NCBI RefSeq assembly: GCF_900456975.1
Contig: NZ_UGYM01000002.1
Location: 3,658,001-3,722,000, forward strand
Reading direction: 5' to 3'
Source: Shewanella baltica
Lineage (GTDB): Bacteria > Pseudomonadota > Gammaproteobacteria > Enterobacterales > Shewanellaceae
Length of the DNA stretch: 64,000 nucleotides
This document shows, piece by piece, positions 30,995 to 37,744 of this stretch; the stretch's first letter is position 1; the number at the start of each line of letters is the position of its first letter. The notes under the pieces were generated by a model. It searched no databases. It saw only the letters and a program-made list of their open reading frames with translations, and was not told the DNA's origin. The translations under genes were made by a program, and so were the position numbers.

Positions 30995-31675
30995 ATGATA
31001 GACGCAATTAACAGCTCGCTGTTCAGCCCAATTGGCGAAGATGGCATGATAGGTATACTGCTGATATTAAATGGTTTGAAGGTGACGTTAATCGTCACTT
31101 TCTTCGCCATGTTATTAGGCGCAGTGTTAGGCATTGGCACCACCTTTATGAAGATGTCGTCTAAGTGGTACATCCGCTTCCCCGCCAATCTTTATGTCGG
31201 TGTTATCCGTGGCACGCCAGTGGTTGTGCAGTTAGTGATCCTTTACTTCATCGTGCTTTCAGCCTTAGATGTCGATAAAATCACCGCCGCCATCATCGCC
31301 TTTGGTCTCAATAGCGGCGCGTATATCTCTGAGATAATCCGCGCAGGGATTCAAGCCGTCGACAAAGGTCAAACCGAAGCGGCCCGTTCGCTCGGTTTAT
31401 CCCAAGCCATGACCATGAAATCGATTATTTTGCCCCAAGCAGTCAAGAATATTCTGCCCGCACTTGGTAATGAATTTATCGTGCTCCTCAAGGAAACCGC
31501 CGTTATTGGCTTTATCGGTGGCGTCGACCTGATGCGCGCCGGTGAAATCATCCGTAGCCGTACCTTCGAGGACAGTGTGCCCTTATTTACCTGCGCCCTT
31601 ATTTACCTATTCCTGACCTACAGCTTCACGTTTGTGCTGTCGAAATTTGAAAAGAGGTTGAAACAAAGTGATTAA
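30995..31675 (+). CDS. Polar amino-acid ABC transporter permease
   Basis: 226 residues with about five membrane spans. The HisM/GlnP signature is present: [19 protein letters not shown] near 67-85 and the ATPase-contacting EAA loop [22 protein letters not shown] near 129-150. One permease is encoded, so it likely works as a homodimer. Seven bases after the binding protein; overlaps the ATPase gene by 8 bp. Confidence 0.93.
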
Positions 31676-32393
31676 AATAACCAACCTGCATAAAAACTTC
31701 GGCGATAACCAAGTGCTCAAGGGTATTAGCGAGCATATTCGTCAGGGTGAAGTGGTGAGTGTGATTGGCCCAAGCGGCAGCGGCAAGAGTACCTTTTTGC
31801 GTTGTATCAATCTGTTAGAGCAGCCAAGCCAAGGCGATATCGAAATTGAGGGTCAATTGATCACAGCGCCAAACGCCTGCGTCGATAAACTGCGGCAAAA
31901 AGTGGGCATGGTGTTTCAAAACTTTAACCTGTTCCCACATAAAACTGTCATCCAAAACATCACCTTAGCGCCCATTAGTCTAAAACTAATGACGCCCGCT
32001 CTGGCCGAAACGAAAGCCCTAGACCTATTGGCACAGGTTGGTTTAAGTGACAAAGCCAATGCCTATCCCGCCAGTTTATCGGGCGGCCAAAAACAAAGAG
32101 TCGCCATTGCCCGTGCATTAGCAATGGAACCTGATTTGATGCTGTTTGATGAGCCAACATCGGCACTCGACCCAGAAATGGTCGGCGATGTGCTAGACGT
32201 GATGAAAGACTTAGCGCTAAAGGGCATGACCATGGTGATTGTTACCCACGAAATGGGCTTTGCGCGCGATGTATCCGATCGAGTGATCTTTATGGATGGC
32301 GGTTATGTAGTCGAATCTAGTCCACCCGATGAGCTATTTAGCCATCCCAAAGAAGCCCGTACCCAAGCGTTTTTAAGCAAAGTATTGCGCTAG
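31668..32393 (+). CDS. Polar amino-acid ABC transporter ATP-binding protein
   Basis: 241 residues from a GTG that overlaps the end of the permease gene. Walker [10 protein letters not shown] (~33-41), Q-loop [10 protein letters not shown], signature LSGGQKQR (~136-143), Walker [14 protein letters not shown] and the H-loop VTHE are all intact. It powers uptake by the two preceding gene products. Closest to the GlnQ/ArtP group. Confidence 0.95.
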
Positions 32394-32654
32394 CTAATGC
32401 GGATTCAGTTAAATTCATCATTGGATGCAGGTATGCCCCATCTGATGTGAAAGGATTAACAAATGCCACGATGGCATGAATGCCAAAAAGCGGCCATGGG
32501 GCGGACGGTCGTCTCGCCAATCACCATTACTCACCTTTTTGGCTTTCGCATAACCTGTAGATTTAAAAGACACCGGACATACGCAACATACTTTTGGACA
32601 AAAGTGAGTTAGTTTTTTACTCGAATCAGTGGGCTTCGGATAAATATTTCTATG

Positions 32655-32757
32655 GACTAACACCCTGCTAACAGGTAAATGATGTTTGACTATAATTTTG
32701 AAACGTAGAGATAAAAAGCCAAACAGTATTTCTCCCTGTCGAACAGCTTGTATATTA
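32655..32757 (-). repeat. Degenerate attC-like site at the left end of the cassette array
   Basis: On the minus strand, directly after the stop codon of the interrupted cassette gene, ATATACAAG looks like the ATATAACAAG box of the site at 35183-35281 with one base lost. CTGTTCGACAGG pairs with CCTGTTAGCAG with one unpaired base, the extrahelical base expected of attC, and the site ends in GTGTTAGTC. Total ~103 bp. Less certain than the sites to the right. Confidence 0.5.
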
Positions 32758-32801
32758 CCGCTTCTTGATTACGTTACCGTATCTATCTCTCCAACCTTCA
32801 A

Positions 32802-32810
32802 TTTCAGGCG
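32802..32810. repeat. Target-site duplication, left copy
   Basis: TTTCAGGCG directly abuts the left end of the IS element and recurs exactly at 34129-34137. Nine base pairs is the duplication size of the IS10 group. Confidence 0.88.
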
Positions 32811-34128
32811 CTGGGGGATCCCCTCATAATTGAGGTCTTCCAGCGTCATGAACTAAGTTTATATATTCGATTAATGCCCAGCGAAAAATTGTCTCCTTTA
32901 CCGGATATTTGTCTCTTTTGCGTACTTCCTTTCCAAGTCTGACAATTGATAGCACTGCCCGCTTTCTCACTGTATTGGCTTGAAAATATCTTTGCCATCC
33001 GAGGTGTTGTGCCGCTAACCCAATACACCACAACACGATTTCAGCCAGCATAGCGATGAGCAGCAATACATCATATCGCTTTGGACAACGGCTGCGGCTT
33101 TGTCTAAGGCCCATGCCATATTGCGGACTTTTTAAATCGCGGAAGGTTTCTTCAATTTGCATTCGCTTAGCATATAAATCGACGACCTTTGAAGGGCCAA
33201 AGTAGTCCGGCGGTAGATTTGTTGCGAGTAGCCAAGGCTCTTTACTCCCTAAGCTGTAACTCTTTTGTGCGGTGTGATTTCGCCCAGCTTTAGAAGAACG
33301 TTTATCCTTACGCAGCTTAGGTTTAGCTTTAAACAAGTGCAGGCAACATTGTAGCGGAGACTTGCGCGCTAACTTGACGCTACCTATGTATTTCGCGGTT
33401 GAATTCGCCTTAGGGTAGAGGGATTTATTTGACTGCCATGATGTTTGGCCGTTGAGCATAAAACTGACATCACCGCGAACTCGACCTAGCCAAAACCAGC
33501 CATGGCGCTCGACTTCCCTAAACCAAGTATTGCGATAACCTGCATCGGTGACGATGAGCGGGCAGCATCTTGGCGGCAATACGTTAGCAAGCTCAGCTAA
33601 GAAAGTGTTATGACTGCGCGGGGCATTGTAATCTTCAAATAGAAAAGTGCGTTCGTACAAAGTAATGGAGCGACCTTTAACACTGATTGATGCGCGTAAG
33701 GTCATCATTCGCAGTTGCTCGCGTACATCAGACCAATCCACAAGAATAATGGGCATCGGATTTGAGCCGCAGAGATACTGTGCATGCCATTGATAAATAG
33801 CGAACTTATCTTTGACAACATGTAGATTTCCGAGCAGTCGGTCAATACGCTTGATATTGTGTTTTGGTGCAACGTTACCCGTTATGTTCCGTCCTAACTG
33901 GGTTAACGAGAGTTGATTGCCATCGAGTAAAGACTCAGTAGCAACCATCAGAGAATTAAGGCGTTTTTGGTGTATTTGAGGGCATTGTTTTTTGAGTAAA
34001 TCGTGTAATATGTCGATATCACGCATGATGTTGGATCTAGTAGGTTTTTGGCGAAATTGATTAGATCAAACAGCATCATGCGTGTCTACTTATTTGAATC
34101 CCATCGAATTTATCTGGGGATTCGCTAG
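32811..34128 (-). mobile_element. IS4-family, IS10-group insertion sequence
   Basis: A complete 1,318-bp element. The ends are imperfect inverted repeats: CTGGGGGATCCCCTCATAA on the left and CTAGCGAATCCCCAGATAA reading in from the right, both resembling the IS10 terminus. The element carries a single intact transposase gene and is bordered by 9-bp direct repeats. Its size is close to IS10 (1,329 bp). Insertion is within a cassette gene. Confidence 0.9.
32824..34026 (-). CDS. IS10-group (IS4 family) DDE transposase
   Basis: 400 residues, clearly similar to the IS10 transposase over its length: DILHDLLKKQCPQIH at the start, KHNIKRIDRLLGN, then the DDE catalytic residues in LVDWSD (~97), IVTDAGY (~159) and the YREK signature Y-x2-R-x3-E-x6-K in YAKRMQIEETFRDLK (~288-302), and FQANTVRKRAVLS near the end. 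The reading frame is undamaged, so the element may be active. The stop lies 13 bp from the left inverted-repeat end. Confidence 0.95.
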   Translation of the reverse strand: MRDIDILHDLLKKQCPQIHQKRLNSLMVATESLLDGNQLSLTQLGRNITGNVAPKHNIKRIDRLLGNLHVVKDKFAIYQWHAQYLCGSNPMPIILVDWSDVREQLRMMTLRASISVKGRSITLYERTFLFEDYNAPRSHNTFLAELANVLPPRCCPLIVTDAGYRNTWFREVERHGWFWLGRVRGDVSFMLNGQTSWQSNKSLYPKANSTAKYIGSVKLARKSPLQCCLHLFKAKPKLRKDKRSSKAGRNHTAQKSYSLGSKEPWLLATNLPPDYFGPSKVVDLYAKRMQIEETFRDLKSPQYGMGLRQSRSRCPKRYDVLLLIAMLAEIVLWCIGLAAQHLGWQRYFQANTVRKRAVLSIVRLGKEVRKRDKYPVKETIFRWALIEYINLVHDAGRPQL

Positions 34129-34137
34129 TTTCAGGCG
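34129..34137. repeat. Target-site duplication, right copy
   Basis: Exact repeat of the 9-mer at 32802-32810, directly abutting the right end of the IS; this fixes the right boundary at 34128. Confidence 0.88.
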
Positions 34138-34430
34138 TTGAGAGTAAATATGCGTGAAAAGTGATAATACCATGTGTTTTTCGAATATTTTCAGCCCACC
34201 AAATACCCACAATAAAACCGAGACCTGATGCTCCGTACACAATGTTCCATGCCGTATTGAATTCGAAAAAATAAAAGCTAAATAAACTGGGAATGCAAAA
34301 TAATGCTGTTGCCGAAAGAATTATTTGGAAATACAACCAAGCGAATATAAGCCAAGCTGTTAAATGTAGGTAGCCCTCAAGTGGCTTTATTATGATTAAT
34401 TTTAGATACTTCATGCAATTCCATTTGGTA

Positions 34431-34490
34431 ACATAACGTCTTAGTATTTATGCGCTGCGCTGTTTGCAGGGCATAAATCGCTTGTTTACT
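34431..34490 (-). repeat. attC recombination site, short type (60 bp)
   Basis: On the minus strand it starts AGTAAAC and ends GTTATGT. Inside, ATTTATGC pairs exactly with GCATAAAT and CTGC with GCAG, giving the imperfect hairpin expected of an integron attC. The membrane-protein cassette gene starts 17 bp beyond the GTT end. Confidence 0.65.
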
Positions 34491-34522
34491 AAATCTCAAA
34501 TATGGCCACTACCACATCCATG

Positions 34523-34627
34523 TCAATTGGTATAAATGATGCTATAGGAATTTATTTTTTTGAGGTAAGGTCTGAGCTGCAGAGCTGTTTTGAGCAAATA
34601 ATATTGCATGGTTTCTGCGTATTTCAT
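34523..34627 (-). CDS. 34-codon cassette ORF
   Basis: A small minus-strand frame starting with ATG 34627 and preceded by AAAGGA at good spacing. It encodes a Tyr/Leu/Lys-rich peptide (MKYAETMQYYLLKTALQL...) with an amphipathic-helix look. It lies between two attC sites and is the only frame with a good ribosome site in that cassette. Whether it is translated is unknown; the cassette could alternatively be non-coding. Confidence 0.35.
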   Translation of the reverse strand: MKYAETMQYYLLKTALQLRPYLKKINSYSIIYTN

Positions 34628-34737
34628 TGATAATCCTTTGTCATGGTTGTGTTCCATCGCATCTTTTTTAAGTCTAGCTGATTCGAGCAGGCTTAATCAT
34701 TCCACTAAATCGCAGTTAAGCTCCGCGCAGCGGCTTA

Positions 34738-34844
34738 GTTCAACGCCGCATTCAGGGGCGCCGGCACTACAGAAGTGACCGCACAACGCCCTAAACACTA
34801 AACCAAACCACGCGTACCAAGTCCCACTTTAACGCCTGTTAGCT
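34738..34844 (-). repeat. attC recombination site, Vibrio-repeat-like (107 bp)
   Basis: Read on the minus strand it begins AGCTAACAGGCGTTAAAGTG and ends GGCGTTGAAC, whose last seven bases fit the R' consensus GTTRRRY exactly. It shares the layout and many bases with Vibrio cholerae repeats: TAAC, GGGACT, ACGCGTGG, a TTTAGTGTT segment, GTTGT, then CCCCT..GGCGTT. The two ends are partly complementary. The stop codon of the upstream gene (TAA) lies inside the R'' box, as is usual in tightly packed cassettes. The strongest attC of the window. Confidence 0.8.
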
Positions 34845-35147
34845 GTTAATTTCACTGAAAATTTCGACCCACTGTTTCGGATTAGCCGTGATAAAAACAA
34901 ACGTTGACTCATTTGATAAAGTGATTCGAATTGCATCAGTTGTGATCGGAATGATTCCACCACCCTTACCCACATCTTGAATCACTAACTTTATTTCATC
35001 ACGCTTGATATGGTAGGGACCGAGGCCAAGCTGCTCGTTAAATGGGACAAAAACAACCTCTGTATCCGTCAATGACAGCTTACCGTCCGCCCTAGCCACA
35101 CCTATTTGTACTGTTGCAAATGATGACTTTATCGGTTCTTTAAACAT
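34839..35147 (-). CDS. Cassette-encoded protein with GRAM/PH-like fold
   Basis: 102 residues from ATG 35147, chosen for AAGGA seven bases upstream; the frame is open ten codons further to a GTG. Beta-rich sequence with GKLSLTDTEVVFVPFN, then KRDEIKLV and IRITLSNESTFVFITANPKQWVEIFSEI, the strand pattern and ending helix of GRAM domains. These bind lipids or partners in eukaryotes; bacterial roles are little known. The assignment is from pattern only. It fills a cassette bounded by two attC sites and its stop codon is inside one. Confidence 0.7.
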   Translation of the reverse strand: MFKEPIKSSFATVQIGVARADGKLSLTDTEVVFVPFNEQLGLGPYHIKRDEIKLVIQDVGKGGGIIPITTDAIRITLSNESTFVFITANPKQWVEIFSEINS

Positions 35148-35182
35148 AGACAATCCTTTTTCTGATGAGTCTTCCACTTACC

Positions 35183-35281
35183 TGCTAACGCATTACTAAT
35201 GGGCTGCCGCAGCGCAGCGTAGGCAGTCCCGTGGAGGCCACGCTTTTTGTGGCCGGAACGAAATTAAGTAACTTGTTATAT
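35183..35281 (-). repeat. attC recombination site (99 bp)
   Basis: Minus strand: begins ATATAACAAGTTAC and ends TAATGCGTTAGCA. Internal stems include GGCCAC/GTGGCC and CTGCC/GGCAG. The TAA of the Imm33-like gene is within the R'' box. Typical attC ending (GCGTTAGC), non-Vibrio-like interior. Confidence 0.7.
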
Positions 35282-35608
35282 GCCGATAAGCGAAGGATCA
35301 TGCCATACATCCTCAACACCAGCAGCAACCAAAAACCTATATCCAGAAGGCAAGCCAAGATACTTTTCAATTTCCTGTAAGTACTTATTGATGTGACTCA
35401 CGTGCAGAGGTTTAAAGAAATCTGCATCATCACTAAGTTCTTCACCACACCAAATATACCAACCACAAGTTTCATTTTCAGCTATGTGGCGCAGACCATT
35501 GATAGGGAATTTACCGATAGTTTCAATCGCAATACCTAGCTTATCGCCGCTGTTACAAGGCGCAAATTCCGCTTCAAATTTAGCGCAGATAACTTGCTGG
35601 CTAACCAT
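35276..35608 (-). CDS. Imm33-like immunity protein on an integron cassette
   Basis: 110 residues from ATG 35608, with TAAGGA six bases upstream; an open frame continues 29 codons further through attC-like DNA and is not used. The sequence matches my knowledge of the Imm33/DUF2185-type family: GIAIETIGKFPINGLRHI, GWYIWCGEELSDDADFF, PLHVSHI and KYLGLPSGYRFL..GVEDVWHDPSL. Such proteins neutralise polymorphic toxins delivered by neighbours or phage-linked systems. No toxin is adjacent, so it would be an orphan immunity gene. Cytosolic, no signal. Its TAA is part of attC. Confidence 0.75.
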   Translation of the reverse strand: MVSQQVICAKFEAEFAPCNSGDKLGIAIETIGKFPINGLRHIAENETCGWYIWCGEELSDDADFFKPLHVSHINKYLQEIEKYLGLPSGYRFLVAAGVEDVWHDPSLIGI

Positions 35609-35622
35609 AACTTTCCTTAGGC

Positions 35623-35690
35623 ATGTAACGCCGCCAGCAGCGGCCGAGTGAAACAAGGTCCAGCGACCGCTGGGCAGAAAAATCTGGCCA
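35623..35690 (-). repeat. Possible attC remnant at the right end of the array
   Basis: On the minus strand CTGCCCAGCGGTCG can pair with CGGCCGCTGCTGGCGG, followed by CGTTACAT, then the Imm33-like gene. The R'' (AAC) box is not recognisable, so this is a degenerate site or a junction with host DNA. Beyond it, 35700-35899 is AT-rich and holds nothing recognisable. Confidence 0.4.
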
Positions 35691-35899
35691 TCCATTTTAG
35701 ATCAACAACATAATGCACTTTTGGTTTGTCTACAACTTGTACGATCTAAAATTGCTTAAAGTAGAGTCATCAAAAGTTGAAGGGCTAAAGCTGAGGCATA
35801 AAAATGAGCTAACTCATTAAAAAATGGTGTATTTAAGACATGCTAATCCACCCTATAGAACAAATGGGTAGTGATTGGTCTGGTTAAGCAGGATTACAG

Positions 35900-36337
35900 T
35901 TAGTTGCTGTGAAAGTACTGACAGCTTGCCGCAAAGTGCCGTCGTCGTTTTTCTAAATGTTCGCAGTAATCGGTCAGTTCTTGCAGCGTACCCACTGGGC
36001 CATGAAATAGCTTGCCAAACTCAGTAGTGAGCTTGAGCCAATTGTCATAGGGGATATTTAATCTTGTCAGTAACTTGGCGCTATTTTCACTGATAGCACC
36101 TCGTTTGTCGCTTCGAATAATTCGGCCAGTATCTTCCACCAATTCGAGGTAGTCCGTTAAGGAAAACGCAATGCCATTGGGCTGGTTATCACATTCATTA
36201 CCGATAAAAGGCAGTAGATTTTTGGGCTGCTCACCTTTTAATGCGGCCCGAATGCGCAGCTGGATACTGGTATAGTCGAATTGTTCTGGCGTATCAGCCA
36301 GTTGGACTCTGATGGGACTTCTTTTAATAAAGAGTAA
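35900..36337 (-). pseudogene. REP-associated tyrosine transposase, 3' remnant
   Basis: A minus-strand frame opens just after a stop at 36338-36340 and encodes KRSPIRVQLADTPEQF, then QPKNLLPFIGNE, DYLELVEDTGRIIRSDKRGAI and LNIPYDNWLKLTTEFGKLF, the C-terminal part of the large Y1-type (IS200-like, RayT) transposases common in Shewanella and Vibrio. The N-terminal HUH and catalytic tyrosine region is missing and no start codon is available at the break. A short unrelated frame overlaps the break. A decayed gene. Confidence 0.7.
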
Positions 36338-36422
36338 TCAGCATAGGCCATACAGGCTAAAAGCTTTGCCTTAATCAACCTAAGCCCTATATCTAAAGCC
36401 AGATCATAACTTAGCACTAAGC

Positions 36423-36962
36423 TCATCCATTGATCTTTGCTGTCAATACGTGATCCCGCCATTGCCCTGCAATCATCAAGTAATCTCGGGCAAAACCTTC
36501 CTTTTCAAATCCTTGTTGCGCCAAAACCGCAGCACTGCGCTTATTTTCAGGCATATAATTTGCCATGATCCGATGAAGCCCAACTTCCTTGAACATGTAA
36601 TCTATTCCTGCAGATAAGATCTCAGTCATCAACCCCTGCCCCTCAAATCTTTGCGAAATAGAATAGCCAAGGAAACAGGCTTGAAAAGCTCCGCGGGTAA
36701 CGCCTGTAAAATTACAGATGCCTATGACTTCCTGCCTGTTTTTTGTCAGTGCGACAAACTTAAACTCACTACCATTGCTAAAAGCTTGCTCCGACGCAGT
36801 TAACGACTCTTGCCAATATTCAAGTGTTAAATACTGACTTCCACGAATAGGTTCCCAAGGCGCTAAATGTTGTTGATTATCTTGATAGTAGTTCAACAAC
36901 AAATGCGCAGAATCCCTATCTAGCACTTCAATTAAGCTTCTTTGTGTTTCAATTATTTTCAT
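36423..36962 (-). CDS. GNAT acetyltransferase, RimJ-like
   Basis: 179 residues from ATG 36962 (AGGAT upstream; a GTG one codon earlier is open). RimJ/RimL features: the N-terminal TQRSLIEVLDRDSAHLLL, APWEP, CFLGYSISQRFEGQGLMTEIL with the acetyl-CoA loop (~95-115), LHRIMANYMPENKRSAAVL and GFEKEGFARDYLMIAGQWRDHV at the end. Likely acetylates the N-terminus of a ribosomal protein or a small molecule. Next to the transposase remnant but not inside the cassette array. Confidence 0.9.
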   Translation of the reverse strand: MKIIETQRSLIEVLDRDSAHLLLNYYQDNQQHLAPWEPIRGSQYLTLEYWQESLTASEQAFSNGSEFKFVALTKNRQEVIGICNFTGVTRGAFQACFLGYSISQRFEGQGLMTEILSAGIDYMFKEVGLHRIMANYMPENKRSAAVLAQQGFEKEGFARDYLMIAGQWRDHVLTAKING

Positions 36963-37090
36963 CACTTATCCTAAATCCAGTTTCAAATTTTTTTTGAAAC
37001 TAATACCTGTCTTGATCACATTGTTTTTTACTTGAACCTGCTTAAAATGCTGCCATTGAATTTGTATTCCTGATGATTTGGAGCTGTTAC

Positions 37091-37744
37091 ATGAGTGATT
37101 TAAGTTTCTTCGCCAAAAAACGTTACACCACTAAAGCCTTTGATCCAACAAAGACGATTCCAGCGGAAAAAATTGCAGATATCAAAACCCTGCTACAATT
37201 CAGCCCTTCGTCAGTTAACTCACAGCCTTGGCATTTTGTACTAGCAAGCACGGCCGAAGGAAAAGCTTTAATCGCCCAAGCAACCGAGAATTATGCCTTT
37301 AATACCCAAAAAATCCTCAATGCTTCCCATGTGGTGGTGCTCTGCACTCGCACTCAATTAGATGAAGCGTATTTGCTGCAAATCCTTGAACAAGAGGAAA
37401 AAGATGGCCGCTTAGCTAATGAGGAAGCAAAACAAGCCCAGCATAATGGCCGTTCTTTCTTCGCCAACATGCATAAATTTGAGATGAAAGATGCACAACA
37501 TTGGATGGAGAAACAGGTCTATTTAGCGCTCGGCACTTTAATGCTCGGCGCAAGCGTGTTAGATATCGATACTTGTCCGATTGAAGGTTTTGATGCCACT
37601 AAAATGAATCAAGTCTTAGGCTTAAGAGAGCAAGGTCTATGCGCCTGCGTAGTTGTCGCCATGGGTTATCACGCAGAGGATGATTTCAACGCTAAATTGC
37701 CTAAATCTCGCTTAGATCAAGAGGTGATTTTTACTGAAATCTAG
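37091..37744 (+). CDS. nfsB: Oxygen-insensitive NAD(P)H nitroreductase (NfsB-like)
   Basis: 217 residues from ATG 37091, giving the same length as E. coli NfsB; the frame is open six codons earlier without a better start. FMN-binding features are the N-terminal KKRYTTKAFDP, FSPSSVNSQPWHFV (~34-47) and the C-terminal helix GLCACVVVAMGYH. The cytosolic dimer performs two-electron reductions of nitro-compounds and quinones. Monocistronic, followed by a clear terminator. Confidence 0.93.
   Translation: MSDLSFFAKKRYTTKAFDPTKTIPAEKIADIKTLLQFSPSSVNSQPWHFVLASTAEGKALIAQATENYAFNTQKILNASHVVVLCTRTQLDEAYLLQILEQEEKDGRLANEEAKQAQHNGRSFFANMHKFEMKDAQHWMEKQVYLALGTLMLGASVLDIDTCPIEGFDATKMNQVLGLREQGLCACVVVAMGYHAEDDFNAKLPKSRLDQEVIFTEI

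Follow-up and report, generated by a model that had tools for sequence, protein, structure and literature searches.

A four-cassette attC array without a neighbouring integrase gene in Shewanella baltica: a possible remnant of a satellite array headed by a dispersed attI repeat

We analysed a 64-kb stretch of the Shewanella baltica genome (positions 3658001-3722000 of contig C2; genome of 5.3 Mb in 2 contigs), referred to as the window. The minus strand of window positions 32655 to 35690 carries a cluster of attC sites lacking a neighbouring integrase gene (CALIN), consisting of four cassettes plus one truncated attC. We favour, with moderate confidence, the explanation that this cluster is what remains, without attI, of a satellite array filled by an integrase (IntI) encoded elsewhere. 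By satellite array we mean a proposed arrangement with a copy of attI at its head, a terminal sequence that we call RIGHT at its end, and no integrase of its own. Whether such arrays make up a distributed integron in Shewanella and some Pseudoalteromonas and Vibrio, in which one integrase would feed up to about a dozen arrays and of which the window would be a worn copy, is in our judgement evenly poised.

attC sites of the array

For scoring, a covariance model (R2) was derived from 16 attC sites in the array linked to the genome's own intI (locus L009); the window sites were not part of it. The arms of these 16 input sites covary, with 77.7% of cells paired compared to 59.4% after shuffling and 29-43% when the arms were slid. 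R2 replaced a model made from joined attC arms (R1), which could not bridge the long loops and did not detect the attC sites of the window. Run across all 64 kb with filters off, R2 lists seven matches at E values up to 10. The best three all lie in the region on one strand, at coordinates where a first-pass annotation made from the sequence had placed attC sites and had advised a covariance search: attC A (35183-35281; 29.9 bits, E 4e-4), attC D (32655-32757; 20.5 bits, E 0.043) and attC B (34738-34844; 17.4 bits, E 0.21). The fourth match (12.6 bits, E 2.2) is located elsewhere in the window and is at chance level. For the two weaker sites of the region, attC D and attC B, the assignment leans on their position and strand and on the cassette layout.

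attC C (34432-34489), a short site with an altered R'' box, received no R2 score, and neither did its twin in the intI-linked array (L009:17614-17673). Among 117 Shewanella genomes, 43 contain its 32-bp core (up to 3 mismatches), which occurs 10 times in this genome; the control gave 0 matches. The site also folds better than its shuffles (z -3.8). The truncated site upstream of cassette A (35623-35677) retains the 3' part only, positions 35623-35669 being 96% identical to the 3'-terminal 47 nt of the complete attC L094:6235-6312. In attC A and B, AAC and GTT are retained, and the stop codons at 35276-35278 and 34839-34841 are inside R'' boxes, as had been noted. The earlier count of four to five minus-strand attC sites is matched by four attC and one truncated site, and the attC reading of the region is confirmed. 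The CALIN label also holds, with three scored attC spanning 2.7 kb on one strand, attC C and the truncated site, and no intI found in the window.

The integrase, the attI repeat and RIGHT

The array had been described as integrase-less. This is correct for the window, in which tblastn with the genome's own IntI detected no intI, but not for the genome: a family search revealed an intact intI on the same contig, 2.05 Mb away (C2:1639662-1640600), without stops and with 399 bits to TIGR02249 (cut-off 265), the sole genome match over this cut-off. A complete integron would have intI and attI at the array; the window contains neither intI nor the 28-base part of attI (up to 5 mismatches).

In the array linked to the intact intI (L009), R2 scores 19 attC, made up of the 16 used as input and 3 others. 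This array (L009:4914-18075, equivalent to C2:1640.9-1654.1 kb) is broken by an element that we take to be IS91-like and by a stretch of ~2.4 kb poor in open reading frames (ORFs). A phage-type integrase gene (L009:1409-2674; PF00589) is located 1 kb from intI, so that the integron with intI may lie within or next to a genomic island.

The intI-linked attI recurs as a unit of ~149 bp, the end of which is the insertion point G^TTA. Its 28-base part (up to 3 mismatches) is present in 11 copies in this genome, including the intI-linked one and copies at C2:867 kb, 1524 kb and 2148 kb, and in 42 of 117 Shewanella genomes (own included), of which 35 have at least 2 copies, with a maximum of 14. No match was obtained with the reversed pattern as control. 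Exact matches to the published Shewanella attI 28-mer are located in four loci of this genome (L009, L090, L094 and L103) and in L122, at the locus orthologous to that of the window. An earlier attI scoring was confined to 7 candidates per genome, so its copy numbers and the figure of 86 of 117 genomes are approximate. The attI-bearing genomes with intI above the cut-off (17 of 42) have a mean of 6.1 copies and those without (25 of 42) a mean of 3.8, a difference with p 0.047 when relatedness is ignored. Promoter consensus matches in attI numbered 2, compared to 1.6 expected, and inverted repeats flanked 3 of 23 modules and are not a general feature.

The main support for a distributed integron comes from a scan for the exact attI core in one genome per species (GTDB), because the stretches were chosen by attI alone. 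The scan yielded 66 stretches, 59 from Shewanella (8 in the ANA-3 chromosome), 5 from Pseudoalteromonas and 2 from Vibrio. A same-strand attC was found within 5 kb downstream of attI in 58 of the 66 copies. In total, the downstream 5 kb contain 117 attC on the same strand and 0 on the opposite strand, while 4 attC are located upstream. Seven of the eight copies lacking a downstream attC have less than 1.6 kb of downstream sequence; the remaining one (L276) has 3.5 kb without a match. No intI match was detected upstream in 46 of the 55 copies having at least 1.2 kb of upstream sequence. A tally of 71 of 71 same-strand attC mixes two kinds of head, attI and a repeat termed LEFT, and its loci, the window included, were picked for their repeats.

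We initially interpreted LEFT, a 140-bp repeat at 34434-34567, as an attI variant, since several attI copies end in its 32-bp core. It turned out to be the 3'-terminal part of a cassette that is widespread and carries a short attC. The attI copies at L090:7927, L091:13071, L097:5637, L098:7437 and L118:6482 end in the last bases of the cassette-C attC and are apparent attI/attC hybrids.

RIGHT (32491-32659) is a conserved sequence following the last attC of many arrays. In the window it directly follows attC D, the last attC, starting where that site ends. Window positions 32396-32656 have 21 matches in the genome, own included, and a 21-base part of RIGHT has 15. In 19 of the 35 loci tabulated, no more than 4 bases separate the start of RIGHT from an attC end. 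For 6 of the 11 attI copies in this genome a same-strand RIGHT is present within 7 kb, compared to 0.11 expected and a maximum of 3 in 10,000 trials. The census value of 66 of 117 genomes with RIGHT is an overestimate: one 3-mismatch string, seen in 11 genomes or more, probably belongs to another locus, and controls with the reversed pattern reached 3 matches per genome.

Origin of the array

The orthologous interval was read in 13 relatives, two of which (L119 and L120) end at contig ends. The first-pass annotation had named as a refutation that related genomes might carry these genes as ordinary contiguous host DNA. Instead, R2 detected attC at the locus in 10 of the 13 (E up to 1), with genes that differ from those of the window at the same place, although several of these matches are weak (E up to 0.78). 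G083 and G006 have a short interval without attC, and no attC was found in L119 (G029). attI is present at the locus in 5 of the 13 relatives, namely G015, G024, G074, G038 and, as a hybrid, G081. No intI was found at the locus in the available sequence of the 13 relatives, that of L119 and L120 being cut by contig ends.

Two of these relatives, G015 and G024, have flanks that are 95-96% identical and an identical 149-bp attI. Past attI, G015 has one cassette and G024 two unrelated ones, with the sequences rejoining at GGGCG^TTAAG. To the left of the rejoining point, where two different attC sites meet, 6 bases are in common. The difference is a cassette replacement with ends exactly at G^TT points. 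Site-specific recombination accounts for both ends, and the right end would not easily arise by homologous recombination. Clean empty sites that would set the module ends, sought for G015 versus G024, were absent in the three pairs examined. In G015, the first cassette of the array is closed by a 129-nt attC (L115:5474-5602), which we take to resemble the Vibrio cholerae repeat.

In the explanation that we favour, a Shewanella attI copy would once have stood at the head of the array and RIGHT at its end, the array having no integrase of its own. An integrase from elsewhere, acting in trans, would have joined the attC sites of cassettes to the array at G^TT points. We infer such exchange by IntI in trans at satellite arrays from sequence comparison. 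The attI of the window array would later have been lost; at the position of attI in relatives, this genome has a remnant of a transposase-like element (35680-36362) and the truncated attC. Subsequently, an insertion sequence (IS; 32807-34139) would have entered cassette D and attC D would have lost a core base. With altered cores at attC C and D and the IS in cassette D, the array now appears largely frozen. The description of the cluster as stranded or dispersed, given from the window sequence, was apt.

Several observations weigh against this explanation or its wider form. Folding of the bottom strand, an advised check, gave mixed results: attC C is well folded, whereas attC A, B and D are weakly folded, only slightly beyond their shuffles (z -1.2, -1.9 and -2.0, respectively). 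For comparison, two coding control stretches had z of 0.1 and -0.5, and two array attC sites -3.8 and -4.6. Moreover, attC D has GGTAAT where its paralogue at 4.05 Mb has GGTAAC. The weak folds together with the altered core of attC D indicate that some of the window sites are probably worn. The E value of attC B is weak when taken alone, Rfam at gathering thresholds gave no match, and the window lacks an attI head, as described above. The distal part of RIGHT also stands alone as an intergenic repeat, so RIGHT is not exclusive to arrays. The exact exchange concerns one strain pair at one locus. The intI of G015 spans positions 20-315 of the family model and that of G024 13-315, with a partial one on another contig; neither genome has an intI that covers the full model. 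Finally, many arrays are now stranded, since more than half of the attI-bearing genomes (the 25 of 42 above) have no intI above the cut-off.

Among the other explanations, decay in place is unlikely. A complete chromosomal integron would have existed at the locus and lost its intI, leaving the array as a relic. Loss of intI is a usual account of CALINs, and relatives have attI and cassettes at this locus. However, intI is missing there from the available sequence of all 13 relatives, with the restriction noted for L119 and L120, and the layout of attI without intI at many sites per genome would require equally many losses of intI.

We consider it less likely again that homologous recombination via shared repeats transferred copies of whole blocks from one locus or strain to another, the integrase having no present part. 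In favour of this, the ~250 bp upstream of attI are common to many copies, and a second occurrence of cassette D and its leader is present at 4.05 Mb. Against it, at the right junction of G015 and G024 two different attC sites meet that have 6 bases in common. More doubtful still is the possibility that IntI placed single cassettes at non-classical genomic sites (attG), without attI, and that these cassettes piled up. Use of attG sites by IntI1 is reported in the accessible text of PMC12901181, and some arrays of this genome have no attI upstream (L088 and L089). Arguing against this, attI is present at the locus in 5 of 13 relatives, and scattered insertion does not predict a terminal RIGHT common to arrays. 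It is very improbable that the attC sites reflect chance resemblance in ordinary host DNA, as the E value of attC B alone and the weak folds of three sites might suggest. This is already contradicted by the coincidence of the three best R2 matches of the window with the region and its strand, by the attC found beside different genes at this position in relatives, and by the recurrence of array parts at other loci.

If the satellite arrays exist as proposed, much of what is called CALIN in Shewanella would represent satellite stations, live where an integrase is present, and not debris. A chromosome would offer many landing sites for cassettes rather than one, and integron counts confined to the surroundings of intI would miss most of them in Shewanella. 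In this genome, the presence of a single intact intI alongside some ten other attI copies at separate sites would allow a direct test of action in trans.

Array content and known systems

On the minus strand, the 3' part of the transposase-like element is followed by the truncated attC, cassettes A, B, C and D, each with its attC, and RIGHT. The transposase-like part, a C-terminal gene remnant with a tail, shares 88% identity with C2:2957025-2957693. This relative carries an ORF of 325 amino acids, which reached 40 bits against REP_Tyr_transpos (cut-off 80) and had no match in a Pfam search. At window position 35678, L088:5194 and L093:5686, attC-associated sequence borders the 3' end of the element. 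These are all the places in the genome that keep this end, which may hint at a preference of the element for attC-like hairpins.

Cassette A encodes an Imm33-like protein (35276-35608; PF24719, 134 bits), while family searches assigned the gene of cassette B (34839-35147) to no known family. Cassette C (34434-34740; ~305 bp) has only a short ORF (34523-34627). In a comparison covering 42 core-containing stretches, the whole cassette was 69-78% identical in three other genomes. This cassette, also seen at L312, L311 and L329 and with an ORF of just 28-36 amino acids, is common to distant Shewanella. The gene of cassette D, without a family, is interrupted by the IS, an IS4-family element (NF033591, 409 bits) with a 9-bp repeat at its edges and a second copy of 98% identity at C2:2391369. 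An uninterrupted copy of cassette D is found in L089 (C2:4.05 Mb), with 97.6% identity over 34140-34429, which includes the first part of the gene (34140-34414), and 100% identity over the remainder past the IS (32758-32806). PADLOC and NCBIfam put no name on the genes of cassettes A, B and D. At L088:2142-3807 (C2:2954.6-2956.3 kb), a single large cassette stands behind a cassette-C attC; its protein, which to us looks SIR2-like, is possibly a defence gene product. The flanking host genes presumably encode an ABC-transporter ATPase (31668-32393) and an acetyltransferase and a nitroreductase (36423-37744).

According to the accessible text of PMC9229058, CALINs and single attC cassettes without adjacent intI (SALINs) occur in most Shewanella, also where intI is present elsewhere. 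The window resembles these clusters in having attC without a neighbouring intI, in a genome with an intI elsewhere. The Shewanella integrons in that text have up to nine cassettes, fewer than the 19 attC of the L009 array. To the extent accessible, its text treats attI only for intI-linked integrons and mentions no attI heads, RIGHT end or chromosomal repetition. An attI-headed CALIN is known from one Shewanella prophage (PMC9892861, accessible part), with the same Shewanella-type attI 28-mer as in L009, L090, L094, L103 and L122. The accessible part of that paper concerns one case in one prophage, whereas the attI copies described here are spread over the chromosomes of many species, mostly far from intI. 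Unlike the prophage CALIN, the window array appears to have lost its attI. A search of the open-licence literature did not find attI as a dispersed repeat beyond these two papers. CALINs in Shewanella are thus already known, and a dispersed attI system was not found described in this literature.

The delta-attI cassettes of class 1 and class 2 integrons (PMC12901181, accessible part) are pieces of attI off the usual place beside intI that still recombine. They share with the Shewanella arrays the position of attI away from intI. In delta-attI cassettes, however, a short piece of attI substitutes for attC downstream of the gene, whereas in Shewanella an attI of ~149 bp is located upstream of the arrays.

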